The notes under the pieces: generated by a model
What the model saw: only the letters and a program-made list of their open reading frames with translations
What the model was told of the DNA's origin: nothing
The model's database searches: none
Position numbers and translations under genes: made by a program
Part shown: piece by piece, positions 2,376 through 25,038 of the stretch
Position numbering within the stretch: the first letter of the stretch is position 1
How the letters are laid out: each line of letters begins with the position of its first letter
From: Euzebya tangerina
GTDB lineage: Bacteria > Actinomycetota > Nitriliruptoria > Euzebyales > Euzebyaceae
DNA length: 64,000 nt
Direction: 5' to 3'
Assembly (NCBI RefSeq): GCF_003074135.1
Contig: NZ_PPDK01000001.1
Coordinates: 1,426,001 to 1,490,000, forward strand

Positions 2376-3659
2376 TCACAGACCCCCGAGTTGAAGGTAG
2401 ATGCCACCCAACAGCAGGAGCGCAACGACGGCCCGGGCGAAGAAGGTGGCCGGCCCCAGCTGGCGGACGTCGGTGACCACCCGGGCGGCGCGACGCTGGA
2501 TCACGACGACGGCACCGAGGTGCCCGAGCGCGAACGGGATCGACTGGATGGCCGCCAGCAGATCGAGTGGGATCGGTTCGGGGTCGACCCGCTCCCCGGC
2601 CAGGCCGAGGTAGTTCGCGCCGGTGGCCAGCGGATCGGACAACCAGATGAACAGTCCTTGGCCGTCGATCAGCAGGATCGAGAGGTAGTGGGCCACGACC
2701 CACCCGCCGGCCACAGCGACGAAGGCAGGCCCGACGCTGACCCTGCTGCTGGTCCCCACGATCAGCCCGTAGAGGGCGGCGATGGTGACGATGAGCAGCA
2801 TCAGGCCGAGCGAGGTGGCGAACCCGCCGACGATCGCCAGCTCGTGCCACCACTCGGTCTCGAGCACCAGGTCGGTGAGGGACCAGCCGATCAGCACGGC
2901 GCAGACCAGCCGCACTCGGGTGGTGTCCGCCAGCGCCGTCAGTCGGGACACCGGACCCCCGTCGCGGGGCCGCAGCAGCCCCATCGTGGTGGAGAGGACC
3001 GTGAGGCTCTCGGTGCGGGTCAGCCAGATCGGTCCGAATCGGGAGGTCCCTGCGACGTGGACCACCACGTAGGCGATCAGGATCAGCTGGAAGACGAAGA
3101 CGGAGGCGTTGACCAGCAGTTGGATCCCGGCCCAGGCGACGAGGAGGGCGACGGCCGCTCCGTCGGCGACTCGCTCGGACAGCGCCGGCCGCGCCACGTC
3201 GTCGTCCACCGCCAGCGCCAGGTCCGCCCCGCGACCGAGCAGCCGCATCGGGTCCGCCCGGTGCCACCACGGTCCGACCACGATGCTGGTGATCGCGACG
3301 AACCCCCAGAGCAGGGTCATCGCGACCAGGTCGGTCAGGTTCTCGGCCGGGTCCGCCGAGCCGAACGTGGTGAGGACCGCGAGCAGGATGAGCCCGGCCA
3401 GGCCCAGCACCTGCCCCACGGTTCCCGCTTCCGTGCGCAGGACGGGGCGGGAGGCCGGGTCGGTGGTGCTGGCGGCGGGTGTCGAGGCCCGGGCGGCCGA
3501 GCCCTCGGCGCCGAGGGATGCGGTCACTCGCCGGGTGCTGGCCGCGCTGGCAGCCAGGAACAGCCCCGTCAACACCGTCAGGACGACGGTGAGGGGCACC
3601 GCGCCGATGCTCTGCGGCAGGGCATGGGCGAGTGTCACCGACGGGTTGGGTGTCGGCAT
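2376..3659 (-). CDS. Multi-pass membrane protein of unknown function
   Basis: A 427-residue protein with about ten hydrophobic segments and no enzyme motif I can identify. The central segment GPWWHRADPMRLL followed later by RTESLTVLSTTMGLLRP is reminiscent of an actinobacterial membrane family often labelled fenitrothion hydrolase in databases, a label that rests on weak evidence; I would call it an uncharacterised integral membrane protein. A short Ala/Ser/Thr-rich loop (about residues 45-70) follows the first helix. Its ATG lies one base after the stop of the DUF389 gene upstream (TGA-C-ATG), so it is the second gene of a tightly coupled pair. It converges with the IclR gene. Confidence 0.85.
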   Translation of the reverse strand: MPTPNPSVTLAHALPQSIGAVPLTVVLTVLTGLFLAASAASTRRVTASLGAEGSAARASTPAASTTDPASRPVLRTEAGTVGQVLGLAGLILLAVLTTFGSADPAENLTDLVAMTLLWGFVAITSIVVGPWWHRADPMRLLGRGADLALAVDDDVARPALSERVADGAAVALLVAWAGIQLLVNASVFVFQLILIAYVVVHVAGTSRFGPIWLTRTESLTVLSTTMGLLRPRDGGPVSRLTALADTTRVRLVCAVLIGWSLTDLVLETEWWHELAIVGGFATSLGLMLLIVTIAALYGLIVGTSSRVSVGPAFVAVAGGWVVAHYLSILLIDGQGLFIWLSDPLATGANYLGLAGERVDPEPIPLDLLAAIQSIPFALGHLGAVVVIQRRAARVVTDVRQLGPATFFARAVVALLLLGGIYLQLGGL

Positions 3660-3660
3660 G

Positions 3661-5460
3661 TCACTCCCCGTCGGGCGTCACGACCGGCAGCACGATCAGC
3701 CGGAGGTCGACCGGTGACCCGATCGCCTCGGCGACGGCCCCTTCGATCACGGTCGCATCCGCAGGCGTCGGGTCGCTGTCGGCTGTCACCGTGGCGGTCA
3801 CCTCGACGGGAGAGATCCCGCTGGTCTCCACCTGCTGGACGCTGATGCCCGGGATGGTCTCCTCGATGGAGCTGATGATGCGACGGCGGTCGAAGCCCGT
3901 CTGGTCGGCGTTGAGGACGACGATGGCGACCAGCAGCCCGGCGACGGCCGCGATCATGCCGACCGCCCAGCCGCTGCGCGACTCCACCCGTCGGTGGCGC
4001 TGGATCCGCAGCCCCAGCCAGGCGAACACCAGGCAGCTGACAGCTGCGATGCAGACGATGTTGGTGGTGAACAGCAGCAGGGCACCCAGGGCCAGCTGCG
4101 CCTGGCCGATCCCGGCGGCCAGGCCGACGACGCACAGCGGCGGGACGAGGGCTGCGGCGATGGCAACCCCCGCCAAGGCGGCCGGGATGTCTCGGCGGGC
4201 GGTGGCGTACCCACCGGCGATGCCCGATGCCAGGGCGATGCCGGCATCGAGCAGGGTCGGGGCACTGCGTGACGTCATCTCGGAGGTGGGGGCATCCGGC
4301 TGGATGAGCAGACCGAGCACGAAGGAGGCAACCAGGATCATGCCGGTGCCGTTGAGGACGGTGGCCAGACTCTGACGGGCGATGCCGACCCGCCCAGCCG
4401 TCACACCGACGCCGAGGGCGACGAGCGGCGTCATCAGCGGGGCGACCAGCATGGCGCCGATGATCACGGCGGTGGAGTTGAGGAGCAGGCCGAGTGAGGC
4501 GATCAGCGCGGACACCAGCGAGAGCACCAGGTAGTCGGGTGAGGTCTTGGCCAGACGCTCGGCCTGCCACACCAGCTCATCCTGCTCGGGTTCGGTCAGG
4601 CGCGGTCGGATCCGACGGAATCGGCCATCGAAGACCCCGCGGTCGCGCGCGTGCGGTGCGTTGATCAGCAGCGGTCCGTCGAAGCCGTCGAGAACGGTCC
4701 TGATCGTCTCCTCGTGGACCTGGCCCTTGGTGCGGGCGCTGCCCAGGACCAGCAGCTCGGTGTCGGCTGCTTGCCGGAGCAGGGCCTGCGCCGGTTGATT
4801 GCCGTGCACCAGCCGACGGTCGCAGTCGTCGCCTCCGGGCAGACCGTCGAGTTGTTGCCCGAGGCGGACGCTGGCCTGGGCGATGGTGTGCTCGTAGTCG
4901 ACCACGGTCACGGCCCGCGTCTCCACGCCCAGTGCGCCCGCCACCAGCAGCGCGAGGTGAGCGGTGCGGCGGTCCCGATCATGGGGGCTGACGGCCGCGA
5001 CCACGCGCTTGGACTTGCGCAGGGGCGTGGTCTGACCGGTGCGGTAGAGCAGGACGTCGCACGGTGCGGCATCCAGGATGCTGGTGGTGATCTCTCCGAG
5101 CCCCGTCTCGTCGGTCACGCGGCCGATGCCGAGGACCACGGCGTCCGCCCCCTCCTCCGCCACGGTGTCGAGGACACCACGGGTGACGGTGGCGGCACGC
5201 GCGACCACGAGGTCGACCTCGACGTCCGGGCGCATGTTGGAGGCGGCAGCGCAGGCCTTCTCCAACCGCTCCATCCGCTCGTGTTCGGCATCCCGGCCCT
5301 TGTCCTCCAGCAGGATCGACAGACCGAGGACACGACCCCTCTCGCGGGTGACGGCGGCGGCCAGGCGCAGCAGACCGGGTGCGGTGTCCGGGTTCGCCAG
5401 GGGGACGACGACGGTCGCCGGCACGGGCACGTCTGCTGGCGTCCGCTCCATCGGGTTCAT
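3661..5460 (-). CDS. Two universal-stress-like domains fused to a DUF389 membrane domain
   Basis: About 599 residues. The N-terminal half holds two tandem Usp-like alpha/beta domains; each ends near a conserved VVLGIG or LLVLGSA stretch typical of UspA folds. The C-terminal half (from about residue 290) is a DUF389 domain: helix motif SLVSALIASLGLLLNSTAVI, IIGAMLVAPLMTPLVALG, GIAGGYATARRD and ALVPPLCVVG, with at least six membrane segments, then a soluble tail. DUF389 proteins have no established activity; a stress-sensing membrane protein is a guess from the Usp fusion. Neither possible start (ATG 5460, GTG 5508, same frame) has a clear ribosome binding site; the ATG is preferred. The downstream membrane gene is coupled to it. 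Confidence 0.88.
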   Translation of the reverse strand: MNPMERTPADVPVPATVVVPLANPDTAPGLLRLAAAVTRERGRVLGLSILLEDKGRDAEHERMERLEKACAAASNMRPDVEVDLVVARAATVTRGVLDTVAEEGADAVVLGIGRVTDETGLGEITTSILDAAPCDVLLYRTGQTTPLRKSKRVVAAVSPHDRDRRTAHLALLVAGALGVETRAVTVVDYEHTIAQASVRLGQQLDGLPGGDDCDRRLVHGNQPAQALLRQAADTELLVLGSARTKGQVHEETIRTVLDGFDGPLLINAPHARDRGVFDGRFRRIRPRLTEPEQDELVWQAERLAKTSPDYLVLSLVSALIASLGLLLNSTAVIIGAMLVAPLMTPLVALGVGVTAGRVGIARQSLATVLNGTGMILVASFVLGLLIQPDAPTSEMTSRSAPTLLDAGIALASGIAGGYATARRDIPAALAGVAIAAALVPPLCVVGLAAGIGQAQLALGALLLFTTNIVCIAAVSCLVFAWLGLRIQRHRRVESRSGWAVGMIAAVAGLLVAIVVLNADQTGFDRRRIISSIEETIPGISVQQVETSGISPVEVTATVTADSDPTPADATVIEGAVAEAIGSPVDLRLIVLPVVTPDGE

Positions 5461-15894: not shown

Positions 15895-15930
15895 GGAGGT
15901 GTCCCTCCATACCCCGCAGGCCCGCGGGGT
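15895..15930 (+). promoter_or_regulatory. Two tandem hairpins in the histidine kinase leader
   Basis: GGAGG-tgtc-CCTCC (15895-15908) and ACCCCGC-aggccc-GCGGGGT (15911-15930) form adjacent hairpins upstream of the likely TTG start at 15965. The first stem contains AGGAGGT, a perfect ribosome binding sequence, so folding would hide it. TTGACC (15883-15888) could be a -35 element. Confidence 0.4.
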
Positions 15931-15964
15931 CCAGCAGTCGACCAGAGACAAGGAGCGAGGAGCG

Positions 15965-18163
15965 TTGGTTCAGTCCCGAGGCGGTCTCCGGAACGCGCTG
16001 ATTCCAGCTCTCGTGGTGATCGTGGTCGTCCTGACGATCCTGACCGTCAACACCAGCAGGGCCGAGCAGGAGGAGTTCGACCGGGACATCGAGGCTGCGG
16101 TCGACCTCGTGGCGCAACGAGTCGATGCTCGGCTCCAACGCGGGGTGCTGGAGGCTGAAGCCCTGCGTGGCTTGTTCGCCGCCTCGGAGGAGGTGGAGGC
16201 GGATGAGTTCGCCGCCTACACCTCGTTGCTCTTCGACAGTGAGACGTTGGAGGGCGTCACGGCCCTCGGCTGGTCACCCCGGGTCCTGCGGGAGGACATC
16301 CCGGCGCTCGAAGCCACCGTCCGCACCGACACCAGCATCAACCCGGACGGCAACCCCACGTTCGAGGTGTTCCCGCCCGTGACGGACGTCGACGCCGACC
16401 CGGTGGTGTACGTGGCCCCGAACTCCAACTCGGCGGCCTGGGGCTTCAACCTGGCCTCCAATCCCTCGCGACGGGCCGCACTCGACGCCGCCCGCGACAC
16501 CGGGGAGGTGATCTCGACCGAGCCCCTCGTCCTGGTGCAGGAGGAGGCGGACAGCGCAGCCGTCATCCTCTACGCCGCGGTGTACGAGGGCGGGCGGACG
16601 CCCGCGACCGTTGCCGAACGGCAGGCTGCGTATCGGGGATCGGTCTCGGTGGTGCTCCGGAGCGTTGAGTTCATCGCGCCGGTGATCGCCGACCCGCGGA
16701 TCGAGGTCACGCTGTACGACGTCACGACTGCCGACGTCGCCGAGTCCGCAGCCCAGTCCCAGTCCGCAGCCGCCGATCTGACGCCCCAGGGGGTGGCGCC
16801 GGCGGCCATGCTGCTGCCCGCCTTCGATCCGGCCGGCCGCACCGCGATCGAGCGGGTCGTCGATGCGCCGGGCCGGGAGTGGATGTTGGTCGCCTCAGCG
16901 GTTGAGCCTCGACCGGCGGCCGTGGACGCGGGCATCCTGATGCCACGGCTCCTCCCGCTCCTCGCCGTCGTGGGGCTGTTCCTGATCCTCGGACGGTCGG
17001 AGCGACGGGCCCTGGACGAGGCGCAGGTCGCAGCCGAGGAGGTTCGGGCGTCCGAGCAACGCCTCGGCGCGCTGGTCGCGAGCTCGCCCGACGGGCTGCT
17101 GCTGCTCGACGCCGAGGGCGCGGTGCAGTTCGCCAGCAACGAAGCCGACCGCCTGCTGTCCTACCACGGGCAACCGGTCGTCGATACCAACATCGAAGCG
17201 CTGCTCTCATCCGGTCGGGGACCGGTGTTGGACCGGCTGCGCGACATGACCGACGGCCGGGTCGAGTTCGAGGGTCGTTCCCCGTCTGGCACCGGGATCG
17301 ACGTCACCGCGGTGGCCTTCGACGACGATCAGATCCTGGTGTCGGTGCGCGACGCCACGGCACGAATCCGGGCGTTCGACCTGATGGAACGCGCCGTCGT
17401 CCGGGAGCGGCAGGCAGCCGAGCGCGAGCGGGAGCTGGCGGCCTCCCGGCGGGCGTTGCTGTCGACGGTCTCCCACGAGCTGAAGACGCCGCTCACGGCC
17501 ATCCTGGGCTTCTCGAGCCTCCTCAACCAGCAGACGAAGGACGACAACCCGGTCGTCGGACAAGCCGCCAATCGGATCGTCCGGAACGCCAAGACGTTGG
17601 TCAGCCTGGTCGACGACCTGGTGGCGTTCTCCCGTCTCGAGCGTGATGACTTCGTGCTCGACCTGGCCGATGTCGACGCCTGCGCGCTGGTCGAGGACAT
17701 CGTCGAGTCGATGCGTCCGGTCCTCGACCAGCACCAGCTCACCGTGAGCGGGCAATCGGTGACGGCCGCGCTCGACCCCACCGCGGTCACGCGGATCATG
17801 TCGAACCTGTTGATCAACGCCGCTCGCTACACACCACCGGGGACCCATGTCGAGGTTGCGGTCGTACCGGATCGTGACGGCGTCCGGATCTCGGTGGACG
17901 ACAGTGGTCCGGGGGTTCCCGCCGACGAGCGGCAGCTGATCTTCGAGCGGTATCAGCGTGGCTCCGGTGGTGCTGCCGCCACCAGCGTCGGGACCGGAGT
18001 GGGCCTGTGGGTCGTCCGCGAACTGGCCCACCGGATGGGCGGCGACGTGGTGCTCGAGGACTCCCAACTGGGTGGGGCACGATTCGTCGTGCGGCTGGCG
18101 AGCACCCACGCCGGCATGTCGACCGACGCGCCCGATGGCCAGCCCGGGACGGTGCCGGTGTGA
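15965..18163 (+). CDS. Membrane histidine kinase with CHASE and PAS domains
   Basis: A 732-residue sensor kinase. A first membrane helix (about residues 10-31), an extracytoplasmic CHASE domain (about 50-290; contains LGWSPRVLRED and GFNLASNPSRR), a second helix (about 305-325), a PAS domain starting RLGALVASSPDGLLLLDAEG, a HisKA dimerisation helix with SHELKTPLTAILGF (phosphoacceptor His near residue 504), and a HATPase domain with N box NLLINAARY, G1 DDSGPGVP, and G2 GTGVGLWVV. CHASE domains sense small extracellular ligands. Start: TTG 15965 has AAGGAG 9 nt upstream; an alternative GTG at 15899 overlaps the AGGAGGT. The response regulator overlaps its stop by 4 nt. Confidence 0.9.
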   Translation: MVQSRGGLRNALIPALVVIVVVLTILTVNTSRAEQEEFDRDIEAAVDLVAQRVDARLQRGVLEAEALRGLFAASEEVEADEFAAYTSLLFDSETLEGVTALGWSPRVLREDIPALEATVRTDTSINPDGNPTFEVFPPVTDVDADPVVYVAPNSNSAAWGFNLASNPSRRAALDAARDTGEVISTEPLVLVQEEADSAAVILYAAVYEGGRTPATVAERQAAYRGSVSVVLRSVEFIAPVIADPRIEVTLYDVTTADVAESAAQSQSAAADLTPQGVAPAAMLLPAFDPAGRTAIERVVDAPGREWMLVASAVEPRPAAVDAGILMPRLLPLLAVVGLFLILGRSERRALDEAQVAAEEVRASEQRLGALVASSPDGLLLLDAEGAVQFASNEADRLLSYHGQPVVDTNIEALLSSGRGPVLDRLRDMTDGRVEFEGRSPSGTGIDVTAVAFDDDQILVSVRDATARIRAFDLMERAVVRERQAAERERELAASRRALLSTVSHELKTPLTAILGFSSLLNQQTKDDNPVVGQAANRIVRNAKTLVSLVDDLVAFSRLERDDFVLDLADVDACALVEDIVESMRPVLDQHQLTVSGQSVTAALDPTAVTRIMSNLLINAARYTPPGTHVEVAVVPDRDGVRISVDDSGPGVPADERQLIFERYQRGSGGAAATSVGTGVGLWVVRELAHRMGGDVVLEDSQLGGARFVVRLASTHAGMSTDAPDGQPGTVPV

Positions 18164-18528
18164 GCGACAGGCGCGTCCTCATCGCCGATGACACCGAGGA
18201 CATGCGCGCACTGGTCAGCATCGTCCTGCTCGGCGCCGGCGTGACCATCGTCGGTCAGGGCAAGGATGGCAACGAGGCTCTGGAGCTGTGGCGCACCTCG
18301 CGACCGCCGAGGCTCCACGCCGTCATCCTGGACCAGCGCATGCCCGGCCGCACCGGACTCGAGGTGGCTGAGGAGATCCTGGCCGAGGACCCCGAGCAGC
18401 GCATCATCCTCCTCTCCGCGCACGTCGACCCGGAGATGACCGCGGCCGCCGAGGCCCTCGGCATCACCGCCGTGGTGCCCAAGGAGGACATCCTGGGGCT
18501 GCCGGAGCACCTCGCGTTCCCCGGCTGA
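18160..18528 (+). CDS. Single-domain response regulator (receiver only)
   Basis: A 122-residue stand-alone receiver. The acidic pair is in LIADDTEDMR, the phosphoacceptor Asp in VILDQRMPGRTG, the Ser switch in ILLSAHVD and the conserved Lys in VVPKED. There is no DNA-binding or enzymatic output domain, so it must work through a partner protein, as CheY or SpoIIAA-type phospho-switches do. GTGA overlap with the histidine kinase gene makes the two a cognate pair. The Tad pilus operon starts 78 bp downstream on the same strand behind its own promoter-like box, so control of piliation by this pair is possible but unproven. Confidence 0.92.
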   Translation: MSDRRVLIADDTEDMRALVSIVLLGAGVTIVGQGKDGNEALELWRTSRPPRLHAVILDQRMPGRTGLEVAEEILAEDPEQRIILLSAHVDPEMTAAAEALGITAVVPKEDILGLPEHLAFPG

Positions 18529-18606: not shown

Positions 18607-19497
18607 GTGCGTCGCGAAGCCCTCCCCGTTGCCGTCCGCCTGGCCGACCAGGTCCTCCTGGCCGAGGTCACCGCCTACGTCGAGGCCCATCTCGGTTGGC
18701 AGGTCGTCGACCACGGGCCACACCTACCCGCGCGGCTGTGCCTGGCCGACCGGCCGCAGCCAGATCTACCAACCATTGCCGTCGCCGTCCCGGGCACCGA
18801 TCCTCGTCCCCTCCTTCGGGCCGGGGTGCGCGACGTGGTGCTGTGGCCCGACGAACAGGGTCGTCTGGCCGATCTGGTCCCCGATGATCCGGTCGGCCGT
18901 CCCGCCGACCAGGTCGTCGTGGTGGCCGGACTGGCTTCGCGTGTCGGGACCACGACGGTGGCCCTCGCCCTCGGTGCCTGCGCCGCCTGGCGGGGTCGGC
19001 GCGTCGTCGTGGCCACCTCCACACACGGTCGAGCCCTGGTGGGTCCACTGGAGGCCGGGGCGGTGCCCGGTGTCGGGGAGGTGCCAGGCATCCCTGGCCT
19101 GGCCGTGCAGGTCGGCCTGGGCACCCCGCCAGGCCCCAGCAGCCTCTCGGGCACAGGCAGTCCCCCGCGTCCCCACCTCATGGTCGTCGACCGTGGCGTG
19201 TCCACGGGTGCCCACATCGCCGTTGCAGTCCCGGACCGGCTGTGTGCGGAGCAGATCGAGCAGCTGACGCCCAGCTGCACCCTGGTGCTCCGCGGCCGGG
19301 GTGGCTTGCGTGAGGCGGAGATCCGGCGCCTGTTCGACGGCCGCTCGGGCGTGGTGCTGGAGGAGTCCTTCCGCGTCGCCAGAGCGGGCTTCCAGCGGCG
19401 TGTGCCCATCGGGCTGCCCGGCCGGTACGTGGACGGTGTGACCGAGGCGCTCGGGTCGGCCACCGGAGCCATCGCGCCCCGGACGGCGGCGGCGTGA
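18607..19497 (+). CDS. TadZ/CpaE-like pilus localisation ATPase
   Basis: 296 residues: an N-terminal degenerate receiver-like part (about 1-95) and a C-terminal MinD/ParA-like fold with a deviant P-loop, GLASRVGTTTVALALG (about 110-125), where the usual Gly-Lys is replaced by Arg-Val-Gly. TadZ/CpaE proteins place Tad pilus machines in the cell and often have such weakened Walker motifs. Its position as first gene of the pilus operon supports the call. GTG start at 18607 with TACTGT (18594-18599) 7 nt upstream and no ribosome binding site, so the operon message is probably leaderless. The stop overlaps the TadA start (GTGA). Confidence 0.8.
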   Translation: MRREALPVAVRLADQVLLAEVTAYVEAHLGWQVVDHGPHLPARLCLADRPQPDLPTIAVAVPGTDPRPLLRAGVRDVVLWPDEQGRLADLVPDDPVGRPADQVVVVAGLASRVGTTTVALALGACAAWRGRRVVVATSTHGRALVGPLEAGAVPGVGEVPGIPGLAVQVGLGTPPGPSSLSGTGSPPRPHLMVVDRGVSTGAHIAVAVPDRLCAEQIEQLTPSCTLVLRGRGGLREAEIRRLFDGRSGVVLEESFRVARAGFQRRVPIGLPGRYVDGVTEALGSATGAIAPRTAAA

Positions 19498-20618
19498 CCG
19501 ACACGGCAGCCACCGACCCCGCCCTGGTCACCCGGATCCGCAGTCGGCTGTCGATAGCCCGCACGGGCTCAGCGCCTGGTCCGCAGACACCGGCGGGGAC
19601 GCGAGCTGCGGTCGCGGCCGCGCTGGCGGAGGAGGGGGTGACCGATCCAGCGGTGCTGCCCACGTTGGTCCGCGACATCGCCGACCAGGTCGCGGGTCTG
19701 GGACCACTCGAGCGGCTGCTGCGGACGCCGGGCGTCTCCGACGTCATGGTCAACGCCCCGAATGATGTGTGGATCGAGCGGGACGGGCGGCTGGAACGCA
19801 TCGACCTGGGTCTCGCCTCGCGCGCGGACCTGCTCGATGCCGTCAGGCGGGTCATCGCCACACGAGGAGGCCGTCTGGACCGGGCCCACCCGTTCGTCGA
19901 CACCCAACTGGCCGACGGCAGCCGCCTGCACGCGGTCATCGAGCCGATCGTGCCAGCCGGGCCCGTGGTCACCATCCGGCGCTTCGACCGACGGCAGCTG
20001 GGGTGGGCCGATCTGGAGCACTCCGGTGCGGTCCCCGGTCCCGCCGCAGCGATCCTGCGCCAGCTCGTCGCGGAGCGCCGCGGACTCGTCGTCTGCGGGC
20101 GAACCGGTGTCGGCAAGACCACGCTGCTGCAGTTGCTGCTGGGCCAGGTGAGCCACAGCGAACGGGTGGTCCTCATCGAGGACGCCCCCGAACTGCAACC
20201 CGCCACCGCCCATCTCGTCCGGCTGCAGACCCGTCCTGCCAGCGCCGAGGGAGCCGGCGAGATCGACGCCGGCACGCTGGTCCGCCAGGCGCTGCGCATG
20301 CGGCCTGACCGCATCGTCGTGGGAGAGGTACGAGGCCGCGAGATCGCCGACGTCCTGCAGGCGCTGGTGACCGGCCACGAAGGCTGCATGACGACCGTGC
20401 ACGCCAGCTCGGCCGAGGAGGCGCTGGTCCGACTGGAGGGGCTGGCGCTGTTGGCAGGCCTCCCCCTCGCGGCGGCCAGAGCGCAGATCGCGGCGGCCGT
20501 GGACGCGGTGGTGGCACTGGGTCGCGACCAGGAGGGCCGACGCGGTGTGACCCAGATCGCAGCGATTCGGTCCGACGGCGATCGTCCGACCGCGACACCG
20601 CTCTGGGAGCGGCAGTGA
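19494..20618 (+). CDS. tadA: Tad pilus assembly ATPase TadA/CpaF
   Basis: A 374-residue type II/IV secretion ATPase that powers pilin assembly at the cytosolic face. An N-terminal domain (GLGPLERLLRTPGVSDVMVN) precedes the RecA-like core: Walker A CGRTGVGKTTLLQLLL (about residues 200-215), Asp box VLIEDAPEL, Walker B RPDRIVVGEVRGREI, and the His box GHEGCMTTVHASS. All catalytic motifs are intact. The GTG overlaps the TadZ-like stop and the gene's own stop overlaps the next start, so stoichiometry is set by translational coupling. Confidence 0.94.
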   Translation: MTDTAATDPALVTRIRSRLSIARTGSAPGPQTPAGTRAAVAAALAEEGVTDPAVLPTLVRDIADQVAGLGPLERLLRTPGVSDVMVNAPNDVWIERDGRLERIDLGLASRADLLDAVRRVIATRGGRLDRAHPFVDTQLADGSRLHAVIEPIVPAGPVVTIRRFDRRQLGWADLEHSGAVPGPAAAILRQLVAERRGLVVCGRTGVGKTTLLQLLLGQVSHSERVVLIEDAPELQPATAHLVRLQTRPASAEGAGEIDAGTLVRQALRMRPDRIVVGEVRGREIADVLQALVTGHEGCMTTVHASSAEEALVRLEGLALLAGLPLAAARAQIAAAVDAVVALGRDQEGRRGVTQIAAIRSDGDRPTATPLWERQ

Positions 20619-21796
20619 CCACGCTGCTGCGACGCGCAGGTGCAGGAGACGCCGATCTGGCCCAGGCCGACGTCCTGGTGGTGCAGGCCGTCCTGGCCGC
20701 CGGTGCGTCACCACTCGAGGCCCTCCGCGAGGTGGACCATCCCGTCATCCGGGATGCTGTCGCTGCCGTCGATGCCGGTGGCTCCCTCGGCGAGTGGCTG
20801 GCCGCAGACGATGGCGACGCACCGCGAGCCCCGGCGGCCGTGTCGTTGGTCCGGGCTCTCTCGCTCAGCGACAGACTCGGGTCGGCGGCCGGACCGGCGG
20901 CCGACGCGGTCCTCGACGGCCTTGCGGCAGCAGAGCGCGGTCGGCGCCTGACCCGGACGCGGTCGGCCCAGGCGGTGCACAGCGCCCGGTTCCTGATCGG
21001 GCTGCCACCCGTCGCCGGTCTGGGTCTCCTCGTACTCGATCCTGCGGTTCGGCAGTTCTGGCTGGCCGGCTCGGGCCTGCTCATCGTGCTCGTCGCGATC
21101 GTCCTGATCGGCAGCGCCCTGCTCTGGATTCGGCGGCTCCTGGCCCACGTCGCCGACGCCGCCGGGAATGTGGACCCGCTGGCCGACACGACCGCGAAGC
21201 CAGCCCGGGCGGCCGCCACCGTGACCGTCGCCGTGGTCGGAGCGGTGGCCGGCGGCGTTCTGGTCGGGCTGCTCGGTGCCGCGGTGGTGTGGGCAACAGC
21301 ACCACACCTCCGACAGCGCCTGGTCCAGCCGGCGGAGGAGGCATGGCCGACCCTGTCACCCGCCGACGCCCGGCAGTTGCCGACCGTGGAGGCCATCGAG
21401 TTGTTGGCCCTGGCCCTGTCCAGCTCCGCCCCGCTGCCAACGGCCTGTGCCCTGGTCGGAGAAGCCTGCGCGGGCCCAACCGGGCGGGTCTTCGACCGGG
21501 TGGCCGCCGGACTGCACATGGGCGCCGATCCGGATGAGGCATTCCCCGAACCGCTCGCCGAGGTGGCACGCCTCCTGTCACTGACCCGTCGCTGGGGTGC
21601 CCCGAGCGCGAAGGCACTGCGCCTGCTGGCAGCAGATCTTCGAACTCGGGCCGCGTCAGCGGCGGAGGAGGCCGCCGAACGGCTCGCCGTCCGGCTGGTC
21701 TTCCCCACAACCCTGCTGCTCGTACCGGCCTTCGGGCTGCTGGTCGTCGTCCCGCTTGCGGTGTCGATGCTCAGCGGTCTGCAGCTCGGCGGGTAG
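20615..21796 (+). CDS. Fused TadB/TadC-type pilus inner-membrane platform protein
   Basis: 393 residues. Tad systems normally use two T2SSF proteins, TadB and TadC. Here one reading frame holds two half-units: a soluble helical segment (about 15-115) followed by two membrane helices (about 122-165), then another membrane helix (about 196-222), a second soluble T2SSF-like segment (about 245-355, with TVEAIELLALALSSSAPLP), and a final helix pair (about 362-385). This looks like a trimmed TadB joined to TadC. It would form the platform on which TadA turns. The GTG overlaps the tadA stop. Confidence 0.8.
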   Translation: MTTLLRRAGAGDADLAQADVLVVQAVLAAGASPLEALREVDHPVIRDAVAAVDAGGSLGEWLAADDGDAPRAPAAVSLVRALSLSDRLGSAAGPAADAVLDGLAAAERGRRLTRTRSAQAVHSARFLIGLPPVAGLGLLVLDPAVRQFWLAGSGLLIVLVAIVLIGSALLWIRRLLAHVADAAGNVDPLADTTAKPARAAATVTVAVVGAVAGGVLVGLLGAAVVWATAPHLRQRLVQPAEEAWPTLSPADARQLPTVEAIELLALALSSSAPLPTACALVGEACAGPTGRVFDRVAAGLHMGADPDEAFPEPLAEVARLLSLTRRWGAPSAKALRLLAADLRTRAASAAEEAAERLAVRLVFPTTLLLVPAFGLLVVVPLAVSMLSGLQLGG

Positions 21797-21825
21797 CCAC
21801 TCGAACCCAACACGAAGGAGCTCTC

Positions 21826-22080
21826 ATGAACACCACCACCGCCATTCCAACGACCGGCGCCCCGACCGCAAGTGCAGGCGTCGCCGACCGGCTGCGGGCC
21901 GTTCACACCGACGAGACCGGATCCCAGGCCATGGAGTACGGCGCGCTCGCGGCCGGCGGCTGCGGCCTCATCGGGGTGCTGGTCCAGCTGCTGTCATCCG
22001 ACACGGTGCAGGACCGGCTCTCCGGTGTCGTGACCGGCGTCATCGATCAGCTGGGCACCATGCTCGGCGGGATCTTCTGA
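21826..22080 (+). CDS. Flp-type major pilin precursor
   Basis: An 84-residue prepilin: a polar 33-residue leader, then the processing site ETG-SQAMEYGALAAGG with Glu at +5 and Tyr at +6 as in Flp pilins, followed by a hydrophobic helix (GCGLIGVLVQLLSS) and a short C-terminal amphipathic tail. A prepilin peptidase must cut after the Gly, but none is encoded in this window. Unlike the overlapped genes before it, this gene has a 29-nt gap and a strong ribosome binding site (AAGGAG, 21814-21819, 6 nt from ATG), consistent with higher pilin production. Confidence 0.9.
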   Translation: MNTTTAIPTTGAPTASAGVADRLRAVHTDETGSQAMEYGALAAGGCGLIGVLVQLLSSDTVQDRLSGVVTGVIDQLGTMLGGIF

Positions 22081-22097
22081 GCCGGTCTGCATCAGCC

Positions 22098-22493
22098 GTG
22101 GTACCCGCCCCGTCCCGACCGGGTCGTGGGCGGGTGCCCGCGAGTTCTAGCGGGCACGACGAGGGCGCCCAAGCCATCGAGTTCGCGCTGGTGATGCCAC
22201 TCGTCGCCGTGGCGGCGGCCGTGATCATCGGCCTCGGCCAGCTGGTCATGCTGCAACTCGGCTTGCACCAGACCTCGGTGGCGGGTGCCCGCCTCGCCGC
22301 GGTGTCCGACGATGCCACCGTGCTGGCCCAGCTGGACCTGCCAGCGCACACCGTGGTCCAGATCACCCCGCCGTCCGGCGAGCGGGCCGTCGGCGACATG
22401 GTCGTGGTACGGATCGAGCGGACACTCGACCTGCCCGGCGGCTCCCGGACCGTCGGGGCCGCAGCGGCCTTCCGCACCGAGGTGGTCCCGTGA
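22098..22493 (+). CDS. TadE-like minor pseudopilin
   Basis: About 131 residues. After a 30-residue basic leader comes DEGAQAIEFALVMPLVAVAA, the TadE processing and hydrophobic segment with Glu at +5, then a small extracytoplasmic domain (HQTSVAGARLAAVSDD, ending in VGAAAAFRTEVVP). TadE proteins are processed like pilins and help initiate the Flp fibre. The GTG at 22098 is the first usable start after the pilin gene; a second GTG at 22134 is possible. The stop is overlapped by the next gene. Confidence 0.85.
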   Translation: MVPAPSRPGRGRVPASSSGHDEGAQAIEFALVMPLVAVAAAVIIGLGQLVMLQLGLHQTSVAGARLAAVSDDATVLAQLDLPAHTVVQITPPSGERAVGDMVVVRIERTLDLPGGSRTVGAAAAFRTEVVP

Positions 22494-22891
22494 TGCCGAC
22501 GGTGGCCCGGCGCGCGAACCCGGCCGACGGCGGCGCCGCCGGCCTGCTGACGATCCTCACCACGCTGATCAGCGGGACGGTGGTGGTGGCCGTGGTGCTC
22601 AGCCTCGCGACGGCCGCTGCGGCCGCGGGACGGGCCCGTGCAGCCGCCGACGCGGCCGCCTTGGCGATCCTGTCCGGCTCGCCGCTGGCCGGTGGTGACG
22701 GCTCGCCGGCACGTGACGCGGGAGAGATCGTTGCCCGGGCAGCCGACGTCACCATCGTCTCCCTGGACCAGGCAGACTGGCCGCTGGCCGTCCACGTGGT
22801 CACCGAGATCGACGTCCCGCTGATCCCCTGGATGCCGCGCGTGCTGCAGGCCCGCGGATCGGCTGCCCTCGACCCACCTGATCCGCCTTGA
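22490..22891 (+). CDS. TadE/TadG-like helicase-adjacent pseudopilin (Rv3654c-type)
   Basis: A 133-residue small membrane-anchored protein: short leader, GGAAGLLTILTTLISGTVVV hydrophobic segment, an Ala-rich helix (ATAAAAAGRARAAADAAALA) and a short extracytoplasmic tail. It resembles the actinobacterial Rv3654c family found last in TadE clusters. Unlike its neighbours it lacks Glu at +5 after the Gly, so it may not be inserted into the fibre in the same way. GTG at 22490 and ATG at 22493 are adjacent in-frame starts overlapping the preceding TGA. Confidence 0.8.
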   Translation: MMPTVARRANPADGGAAGLLTILTTLISGTVVVAVVLSLATAAAAAGRARAAADAAALAILSGSPLAGGDGSPARDAGEIVARAADVTIVSLDQADWPLAVHVVTEIDVPLIPWMPRVLQARGSAALDPPDPP

Positions 22892-22945
22892 CCGACGCTA
22901 CGCTCGGTGGCTGGACCGTCAGGTGCTCGCGCGGCCCGTTCAACC

Positions 22946-23734
22946 ATGACCCAGCCGACCGGACTTCTGCAACCCGACCCCGTCGGCCGGGACGTCGGCG
23001 GCACGACGCTGATCGGGTACCTGTTGGACGCAGCCCGACTTCGACCCGCCGGCCGCAGGCTGTTGACCCTCTTCAGTCTGGCCCTGTTCATGGTGGGCCT
23101 GAGCGTCTTCGCATTCCCGCTCACCACCGACATCTACACGACCCAGCTGGTCCAACGACCCCTGGCCGACCAGTTCACCTCACCGGAGATCGTCGAGCGG
23201 TACACCACACGCACGATCCAGACCGGGGACCCCCTGACCCAGATGGTCATTCCCGCGCTGGACGTCGATGTCGTGGTGGTGGAGGGCACCTCACCAGCCG
23301 CCCTCCGAGCCGGCGCCGGCCACTACCCGAACACCCCGCTGCCCGGTGAGGAGGGCAACGTGGCCATCGCCGGACACCGGACCACCTACGGCAAGCCGCT
23401 CAACGAACTCGACCTGCTCGACGTCGGCGAGGAGATCCAGCTGGTCACGCCACTGTCGATCCACACCTATCGGGTGGTCGCGGCACCAGCCGACTCCGGG
23501 AGGCGCTGTGCCAACGATGCCTGCTGGATCGTCGACCCCGATCAGTGGGAGGTCGTTGCACCGCTGGACGGCGCGATGCTGACCCTGACCACCTGCCACC
23601 CCAAGAACTCCTTCGCCGAACGGCTCATCCTCCGAGCCGAACTCGTCGGGAGCGAACCCCGGGTCTTCGACGACGAGGGCACCCCGCTGCCCGTGGACCA
23701 GACCGCCGCCGCCGCTGAGGTCAGGCGATCATGA
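22946..23734 (+). CDS. Class E-like sortase
   Basis: A 262-residue membrane transpeptidase. One N-terminal helix (about residues 39-60, LLTLFSLALFMVGLSVFAFPL), then a sortase barrel beginning MVIPALDVDVVVVEGTS. Catalytic residues: His144 in IAGHRTTYG, Cys217 in TLTTCHPKN, Arg226 in AERLIL. The motif GEEGNVAIAGHRTTYGKP is typical of actinobacterial class E sortases, which attach housekeeping proteins to peptidoglycan. It follows the pilus operon by 54 bp on the same strand; TACGCT (22899-22904) may be its own -10 box, with a leader of about 35 nt. Its stop overlaps the next gene, a likely substrate. Confidence 0.9.
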   Translation: MTQPTGLLQPDPVGRDVGGTTLIGYLLDAARLRPAGRRLLTLFSLALFMVGLSVFAFPLTTDIYTTQLVQRPLADQFTSPEIVERYTTRTIQTGDPLTQMVIPALDVDVVVVEGTSPAALRAGAGHYPNTPLPGEEGNVAIAGHRTTYGKPLNELDLLDVGEEIQLVTPLSIHTYRVVAAPADSGRRCANDACWIVDPDQWEVVAPLDGAMLTLTTCHPKNSFAERLILRAELVGSEPRVFDDEGTPLPVDQTAAAAEVRRS

Positions 23735-25038
23735 GCCGCTGGATCATCGGGCGTGGCGTTGCCCTGGGGGCGGTCGTCGCCCTGATCGTGCTCGGCGTGC
23801 TCCTGAGCGTCGCTCCGGTGCAGGCACAGCCCGACCAGCGGGTTGAGGAACCCGCTGCCAGCGCCACCATCGACGACACCTTCGTCGTGGCCGCCATCGT
23901 CCGACCTGACGGCGACAGGGCCATAGCGAGGGTCGAAGCCCGCCTGAGCGGACCCTCCAGCCTGCTGGTCGAGTTGGACCCCATCGACCGCTCCGCCGAC
24001 GGTGGGCAGCGGTGGGCGGCCACAGTCGACCCGCTCGTGCCAGACCGGACGTTGGCCAACGGCAGCTACCGGGTCGAGATCCGCAGCGTCAGCGACGACG
24101 GCGCAGAGCAGGAGTGGGTGGGGCACGACATCGCGGTGGCCGTCCCGCCCGCTCGTCCGACGCTCTCCGCAGCGCCGCTCTCCTCGTCAGCTCGACAGGT
24201 TCGGCTCACCTGGGACCCGGTCAGGCTCCCCGACTTCTTGGGCTACCGGATCGAGCGTCGACCACACGCAGCCGGCGGCGCGTGGACGACCGCGCACCAG
24301 GTCACGCAGGCGGGAACAGGTGCGGTGGTCGACACCGTTCCGGCCGAGGGGGAGTACCGTTACCGACTTGCCGTCCTCCGGCGCAGTGGTGCGGACCAGG
24401 CCGCCGGAGATGAGTCCGCTGTTGATGAGGGAGCGACGCAGGAGTTGCAAGCAACCTCACCCACCATCGGCGTACGAGCCACCACAGCCGACCCCGGGGT
24501 CTTCACACCACCGGCAGAGGGACCTGCCCCGCCCGCAGCGGGCGATCCGGACCCTGGGTCCGGTGACCCGCCCGCCCCGGTCGCGGGGGCGGGCCCGATC
24601 ATCCGCGCCGACACACCCGACCCGGTCGAAGCCCCGGCTCCTCAGCCGGTGGCACCAGGGCAGCCGGCCGGTCAGGCCGCGGCGGTCGGGCAGCCCACGC
24701 CGGTCCCCGAGCCGGCGCAGGCGGTGGTGCCTGAACCGGAACCGCAGGATCCGCCCACGGAGGCCCCAGCCACCCCTCAGGCACCCGACCTCGGCGAGAC
24801 CGTCTTCGAGGACCGTCTGCCGTTCGCCGAAACGGCCTCCGAGCTGACCCTGACCGAGAGCGAGACAGCCTTCATCGATGGAAGTCTCACCCCGGGTGGA
24901 ACCCTGGCGGTCTACACCGAGCAGACCCACGATCAGACCCACGACGTGCTCACCGCCACCGCCGGGGGGCTCGTGATCGTGTTGCTGTCCGCACACGTCC
25001 TCCGCTTCGCGACCGCGGCCAGACGACGAGGCGGTTAG
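23731..25038 (+). CDS. Secreted FN3-like, Pro-rich protein with sorting-signal-like tail
   Basis: 435 residues, no family recognised over the full length. A signal peptide (about 1-32, cleaving after PVQAQ), a beta-rich region (45-140), a fibronectin-III-like domain (about 145-225: LTWDPVRLPDFLGYRIERR), a Pro/Ala/Glu-rich spacer (about 260-355) long enough to cross a cell wall, and a C-terminal block LTATAGG (407-413), a hydrophobic stretch and RRRGG. That tail has the shape of a cell-wall sorting signal, though LTATA is not a standard motif. ATGA overlap with the sortase gene suggests it is that sortase's dedicated substrate. An internal 9-bp hairpin lies at 23837-23858. Confidence 0.82.
   Translation: MSRWIIGRGVALGAVVALIVLGVLLSVAPVQAQPDQRVEEPAASATIDDTFVVAAIVRPDGDRAIARVEARLSGPSSLLVELDPIDRSADGGQRWAATVDPLVPDRTLANGSYRVEIRSVSDDGAEQEWVGHDIAVAVPPARPTLSAAPLSSSARQVRLTWDPVRLPDFLGYRIERRPHAAGGAWTTAHQVTQAGTGAVVDTVPAEGEYRYRLAVLRRSGADQAAGDESAVDEGATQELQATSPTIGVRATTADPGVFTPPAEGPAPPAAGDPDPGSGDPPAPVAGAGPIIRADTPDPVEAPAPQPVAPGQPAGQAAAVGQPTPVPEPAQAVVPEPEPQDPPTEAPATPQAPDLGETVFEDRLPFAETASELTLTESETAFIDGSLTPGGTLAVYTEQTHDQTHDVLTATAGGLVIVLLSAHVLRFATAARRRGG

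Follow-up and report, generated by a model that had tools for sequence, protein, structure and literature searches.

A six-gene Tad operon of Euzebya tangerina encodes a platform protein in which a TadB-type half is followed, in the same chain, by a TadC-type half. The operon lies in the window, a stretch of 64,000 nucleotides (nt) from assembly GCF_003074135.1 (contig NZ_PPDK01000001.1, positions 1,426,001-1,490,000 of the forward strand; G000:C1:1426001-1490000), whose genome (4.78 Mb in 12 contigs, 98.3% complete) belongs to Actinomycetota; Nitriliruptoria; Euzebyales; Euzebyaceae, Nitriliruptoria being called the class below. With a probability of roughly 0.87, the locus is best read as a Tad/Flp (type IVc) pilus operon of minimal, monoderm form, belonging to the actinobacterial Rv3660c-Rv3654c type and having a fused TadB-TadC platform. 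The operon consists of six plus-strand open reading frames (ORFs) at 18607-22891, in the order Ssd/TadZ-like protein, TadA, platform, DUF4244 (Flp-type) pilin, TadE and Rv3654c-type TadF, and their Pfam and NCBIfam identities bear out the six-gene Tad operon proposed in the initial annotation. The continuous overlap claimed there holds at three of the five junctions (4-nt overlaps at 19494-19497, 20615-20618 and 22490-22493) and fails around the pilin, where a 29-nt gap separates the platform stop from the pilin start and a 17-nt gap the pilin stop from the tadE start. The features, in window coordinates, are as follows.

18607..19497, plus strand: Ssd/TadZ-like (Rv3660c-type) MinD-family protein with a degenerate P-loop (LASRVGTTT) and a GTG start, from an iterated profile
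19494..20618, plus strand: TadA assembly ATPase (PF00437, TIGR03819)
20615..21796, plus strand: fused TadB-TadC platform protein of 393 amino acids (Pfam, hhalign, AlphaFold, fold matching)
20657..21166, plus strand: platform N-half, residues 15-184, a TadB-type cytoplasmic six-helix bundle plus hydrophobic helices (hhalign, AlphaFold, fold list)
21203..21319, plus strand: platform middle hydrophobic segment, residues 197-235 (hydropathy, alignment)
21377..21793, plus strand: platform C-half, residues 255-393, a TadC-type cytoplasmic bundle plus C-terminal membrane helix (PF00482, hhalign, PilC fold)
21826..22080, plus strand: major pilin of the DUF4244 family and Flp type, with Glu at +5 of the processing site G/SQAMEY (PF14029, sequence)
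22098..22493, plus strand: TadE minor pilin, processing site G/AQAIEF (PF07811)
22490..22891, plus strand: Rv3654c-type TadE/F-like minor pilin without Glu at +5 (TIGR03816)

That the 393-residue platform is a genuine fusion, TadB before TadC, is supported by profile-profile comparison, AlphaFold modelling, fold matching and 43 other fused loci of the class, and the trimmed TadB joined to TadC that had been proposed from the sequence is thereby upheld. In hhalign, the N-half profile matched split TadB at E 2.6e-22 versus split TadC at E 3e-09, and the C-half profile matched split TadC at E 4.9e-24 versus split TadB at E 8.5e-10, these E-values being pairwise and the split sets having been chosen with the half-profiles; the two halves matched each other at E 2.7e-07. 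The split loci compared have TadB adjoining TadA and TadC after TadB. An AlphaFold model built from 10 sequences (predicted local distance difference test, pLDDT, 83.6) supplied the structure prediction that had been suggested and shows two copies of a six-helix bundle, with N-half helices at residues 17-28, 33-38, 43-53, 58-64, 73-88 and 93-141, a long final helix in each bundle (93-141 and 332-392) and lower confidence in the middle hydrophobic segment. PilC, GspF and ComGB likewise carry two cytoplasmic six-helix bundles per chain, and the window C-half reached Z 12.2 against 2whn, the cytoplasmic domain of PilC (root-mean-square deviation 2.0 over 98 residues). When the N-half was modelled alone, the top six fold rows were all GspF/PilC proteins (Z 7.4-6.1) and the first unrelated row stood at 3.6; a Z of about 7 is by itself weak for a helical bundle, but platform proteins are cleanly ranked above unrelated rows. 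Both halves lie within one open frame in all 15 relatives considered (32-47% identity to the window platform), so that chance does not account for the open frame of the single platform gene.

Unlike PilC, GspF and ComGB, the window protein has halves nearest TadB and TadC, and it carries an extra hydrophobic middle segment, which hydropathy and alignment show to be missing from three relatives of the same family, L094, L109 and L138. The gap between the B and C halves measures 54 residues in the window and -2, 13 and 13 in those three, whose plan is close to the three-helix topology of PilC/ComGB (PMC10191384); membrane helices of the platform were counted from a hydropathy plot only. The first bundle helix of the window protein (residue 17) begins about 15 codons past the tadA stop, compared with a TadB domain reckoned to start about 70 to 270 codons past it in five split loci scanned with Pfam; sequence ahead of the TadB bundle has therefore been lost in the window protein, and the fused platform lacks the membrane segment that split TadB has in front of this bundle. 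As a separate observation, the C-half weakly resembles the sporulation protein SpoIIIAB (PF09548 E 0.0048, under cut-off; fold 6bs9, Z 9.6).

The distribution of the fusion was surveyed through TadA (TIGR03819), which was searched for in 66 genomes of the class (101 matches, spread over 55 genomes), in a phylum sample of 396 genomes (315 of them with matches) and in 60 chosen genomes. The genes after TadA were scored in 161 rows, namely 160 stretches and the window, comprising 88 class loci, 70 loci from outside the class and three stretches of the window's own genome, with profiles built partly from the same loci as were scored. Among the class loci (88 of the 101 matches), 44 were fused (in 44 genomes), 34 split and 10 assignable to neither state; the 70 outside loci, a hand-picked spread, gave 9 fused, 55 split and 6 assignable to neither. 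Seven of those nine fused loci fall in family f59, which we take, by inference and not by computation, to be Micrococcaceae, one in f27 and one in f6. The own-genome stretches yielded one further split locus and two stretches (L180, L181) without tad genes. Five additional f27 loci comprised one clear fusion (L269), one weak one (L266, 11 bits in the first half) and three split loci, and 15 additional f39 loci were all split. Of the 16 loci assignable to neither state, five (L092, L103, L108, L124 and L144) show just a window-type TadB half at a contig end. Locus L218 (f59), with a clear TadB half and a C-half of 8 bits, is assigned to neither state either. A fused call for L182 was rejected as an artefact that had arisen from two pieces of a single TadB domain, its TadC being a separate ORF, and this locus figures as split throughout, the tree included. 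L111 stands among the fused loci although its C-half is broken over frames, possibly by assembly error, and the split locus L179 was omitted from the tree for its weak ATPase score.

A TadA tree of 142 rows unites 43 of the class fusions in a single group free of split loci (SH-like approximate likelihood ratio test, SH-aLRT, 100), while the remaining one (L174) falls with the fusion from f6. At least 4 changes of the fused label are required on this tree, 3 of them forced by well-supported branches, compared with about 43 for shuffled labels, the exact number and direction of changes being soft in a quick, unrooted tree with some long branches. The TadB-TadC fusion thus occurs across the whole class and apparently evolved more than once. 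Pfam gives two T2SSF stretches (E <= 1) in five of the seven f59 fused proteins, as against one in the window platform, and also in L236, L244 and L174; since most other fusions tested show two stretches, a hidden half is demonstrated for no clade but that of the window. A bolder proposal, to which we give clearly less than even odds, is that at least three to four independent re-fusions of TadB and TadC in Actinobacteria recreated a PilC-like single-chain platform, with no re-split seen in the 43-member clade, and that some actinobacterial systems published as 'tadC-lost' may be fusions with a second domain that domain searches miss. Family f39, which at a guess we take to be Bifidobacteriaceae, has separate tadB and tadC at the main locus in 17 of 17 sampled genomes, and undetected fusion accordingly finds no support as an explanation for the 16 bifidobacterial species described as lacking tadC (PMC13091076).

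Several results weigh against a fused platform in a Tad operon. Pfam reports a single T2SSF domain in the platform (PF00482, residues 261-378, E 1.7e-10) and nothing in its N-half, even with E-values up to 1 admitted; in the fold list of the full model, unrelated helical proteins score as high as Z 9.6; the N-half-only model has a predicted template modelling score (pTM) of 0.57, and its Z of 7.4 lies, by itself, within the tool's stated chance range for helical bundles; Foldseek found no PDB match to the full model at E <= 0.001, the best, at 1.4e-03, being a PilC model; and Pfam gave no significant match for the TadZ-like protein (CbiA E 0.28). The initial annotation had made the number of T2SSF domains a touchstone of the fusion, and Pfam does count one. 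This count is read as a sensitivity limit because none of the 11 N-halves tested from the window's clade (the window and ten relatives) reaches the Pfam cut-off, whereas split TadB genes do so in five of five cases; three of the ten relatives show T2SSF in the N-half at E 3e-04 to 4e-04. It is improbable that the gene is a single surviving platform gene with one working T2SSF domain and an unrelated helical extension as its N-half, as the lone Pfam domain would allow and as the reported loss, not fusion, of TadC in some actinobacterial Tad systems (PMC6668835) might suggest: the N-half is much closer to split TadB than to split TadC, is predicted to fold as a second six-helix bundle whose top fold matches are all platform proteins, and recurs in the same position in 43 further class loci.

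Marginally less probable still is a retained ancestral two-domain protein of PilC or archaeal type that predates the fission into tadB and tadC, so that no new fusion took place. Single-chain two-domain platforms are taken as ancestral (PMC6668835) and the middle region of certain fused members is short and PilC-like, but the halves are nearest to the split TadB and TadC of related loci with the same gene order, and the fused loci stand in separate groups among split ones, on a tree that cannot separate gain from loss. A comparison of TadB and TadC with the halves of one PilC from the same genome gave a single match, that of the canonical TadB profile to the PilC N-half (probability 89), which is too little to claim a permuted domain order. 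This slight signal, from a single PilC, runs opposite to the published assignment of TadC as nearest the archaeal N-domain and TadB as nearest the C-domain (PMC6668835). A third alternative concerns the product and not the platform: the locus might make a short pseudopilus or a secretion or DNA-uptake device with no surface pilus. We consider this unlikely, yet clearly less so than the other two, as a pilus of the Euzebya locus is predicted from its genes and the Tad genes of Micrococcus luteus are required for natural transformation; nothing speaks directly against it, and M. luteus also displays surface Flp filaments, so that the two roles are compatible (PMC4322843).

The remaining genes fit the preferred reading of a minimal Tad/Flp pilus operon. 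TadA matches PF00437 at E 9.5e-52 and TIGR03819 at E 4.4e-101 (338.5 bits, below the 373.15 cut-off), and the DUF4244 pilin, whose ATG is preceded by AAGGAG, matches PF14029 at E 6.5e-08. TadE matches PF07811 at E 1.5e-04 (22.3 bits, slightly below the 22.9 cut-off) and, weakly (E 0.014), an NCBIfam profile named after Rv3655c; TadF matches the NCBIfam profile TIGR03816, named after Rv3654c, at E 1.4e-07, below cut-off. For the TadZ-like protein, NCBIfam gives BagB at E 0.002, and a profile iterated from it scores hits at 37 of the 44 fused class loci and, outside the class, at 13 of 14 split ones; as the profile matches fused and split Tad loci alike, the protein is read as Ssd/Rv3660c-type. 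The locus thus shows the hallmarks of the Rv3660c-Rv3654c type, namely TadA, TadB and TadC domains after tadA, a G/XXXXEY pilin, TadE and TadF (both assigned from scores under curated cut-offs) and an unlinked peptidase, together with that of a fused TadBC, one ORF with TadB and then TadC domains.

Some traits that had been singled out as deviant proved real and ordinary. The TadZ P-loop is indeed degenerate, and its lysine is absent from all 47 readable rows (of 50) of TadZ/Ssd proteins; Gly-Gly is kept in 44 of the 47, the exceptions being the window, L094 and L129, all of the window's family. Rv3660c is reported to resemble MinD just in part, and in one TadZ a different lysine substitutes for that of the P-loop (PMC10482377). 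All 60 aligned DUF4244 pilins and all 57 TadE rows have Glu at +5. TadF lacks it, as had been noted for the last pseudopilin: it occurs in none of 55 rows, the glycine being aligned in 46 and replaced by a gap in one. No prepilin peptidase or RcpC gene was found inside the window Tad locus, the genome-wide profile matches all lying elsewhere, so that the stated lack of TadV and RcpC stands too. All four traits, a TadF without Glu at +5, a lysine-free P-loop, no RcpC and an unclustered peptidase, look typical of this locus type.

Separate tadB and tadC genes elsewhere, which had been thought capable of undermining the fusion, do exist, as pairs at C1:2797731-2799055 and C1:676314-677731, each next to an ATPase of its own and close to one of the genome's two RcpC matches; the pairs lie inside two other, split Tad loci (G000:C1:2793697-2799055 and 676314-680797). 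Alone among the three Tad loci in the genome, that of the window lacks RcpC and has a fused platform. The genome also carries type IV pilus genes at G000:C1:2625637-2634495, among them ATPases and, at 2633521-2634495, a PilC with two domains. The peptidase gene expected outside the operon was found on contig C2 (stretch 325000-331500, L181, ORF 3217-4023); it is the sole Peptidase_A24 match in the genome (E <= 0.001) and carries an A24_N domain, that is, it is of PilD and not TadV type. Unless a divergent TadV was missed, this single peptidase probably serves the type IV pilus genes and the three Tad loci, a peptidase unlinked to the tad locus being typical of actinobacteria (PMC4322843). A genome search found no secretin, and assignment to the canonical diderm (Aggregatibacter) type was rejected on this ground, on RcpC occurring only near the other tad loci and on the A24_N-type peptidase.

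Six of the seven f59 genomes carry a second, weaker TadA match, in keeping with the two tad loci of M. luteus, and in the TadA tree the class clade and the f59 fusions stand apart, M. luteus itself not being in the set by name. Streptomyces has a layout with split tadB and tadC. The same layout is found in the system of PMC9531140, which has the gene order of the window apart from the fusion. The closest described counterpart is tad-2, one of the two tad loci of M. luteus, whose fused tadBC (Mlut_18180) was published in 2015; deletion of this fused gene abolishes surface Flp and transformation (PMC4322843). By its published description, tad-2 shares with the window locus tadA, a fused tadB/C, flp, TadE/F-like genes and an unlinked peptidase; M. 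luteus is stated to lack TadZ, whereas the window locus has a TadZ-like gene (PMC4322843). If f59 is the lineage of M. luteus, the two fusions look independent. The view that the Euzebya locus is compact even for actinobacterial Tad loci holds by one gene only, and for a fusion already on record.

The preferred reading suggests a mechanism in which adjacent tadB and tadC would have fused in gene order, with loss of the membrane segment before the TadB bundle, and in which the two cytoplasmic bundles of one fused chain would replace the TadB-TadC heterodimer. CpaF:CpaG:CpaH has been modelled as 6:3:3 (ATPase:TadB:TadC; PMC11300603), and a trimer of PulF and, by suggestion, a trimer of TadB-TadC heterodimers have been described (PMC10790770). 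From these we predict three fused chains per TadA hexamer, to which about three chains would offer six bundles. The ATP cycle of TadA would then drive the insertion of cleaved DUF4244 pilins into a thin pilus, with TadE and TadF as putative minor or tip subunits; the Ssd/TadZ-like protein may position the machine, and the PilD-type peptidase encoded elsewhere probably cleaves the pilins.

Directly upstream of the operon, a CHASE histidine kinase (15899-18163) overlaps an ORF at 18161-18528 that resembles, by eye, a receiver-only response regulator, and the pair is a possible regulator of the operon; a promoter and terminator scan found none, about none being expected by chance, and is thus uninformative. 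Downstream of tadF lies a sortase (22907-23734; PF04203 E 1.4e-27; TLTTC and IAGHRT motifs), with class E as its top NCBIfam match (E 4.3e-36, under cut-off), followed by a secreted-looking protein of 435 amino acids (23731-25038) with, by eye, a C-terminal hydrophobic segment and an RRR tail. The sortase profile matches 11 of 44 fused class loci (one partially) and that of the 435-residue protein 8 of 44; neither matches any of 14 split or 8 f59 loci, in a set where some stretches do not extend far enough to include these genes. The two are possibly an anchoring enzyme and a pilus-linked surface protein.

The gene set described here, of the kind that serves a thin, adhesive Tad pilus, is an ordinary actinobacterial one except for the fused platform, and the fusion itself is known from M. 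luteus (PMC4322843). Added here is a class-wide, apparently repeatedly evolved, covalent TadB:TadC platform whose N-half falls under the Pfam cut-off in 11 of 11 proteins tested; among the papers listed in a literature search there was no report of a fused platform for this class, which does not prove its absence. Because Pfam misses the TadB half in all 11 clade members tested, claims of lost platform genes merit rechecking with profiles built from the lineage concerned. The TadB of some TadC-less actinobacterial systems has been stated not to be two-domain (PMC6668835); the window clade shows how a second domain can escape detection and does not show that statement to be wrong. A covalent TadB-TadC implies that both work within one complex at a 1:1 ratio, a point of relevance to the stoichiometry of the Tad platform, for which rotary and gyratory models have been put forward (PMC11300603). 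If re-fusion has indeed occurred repeatedly, the fixed 1:1 ratio of TadB to TadC would amount to a natural experiment on the Tad motor.

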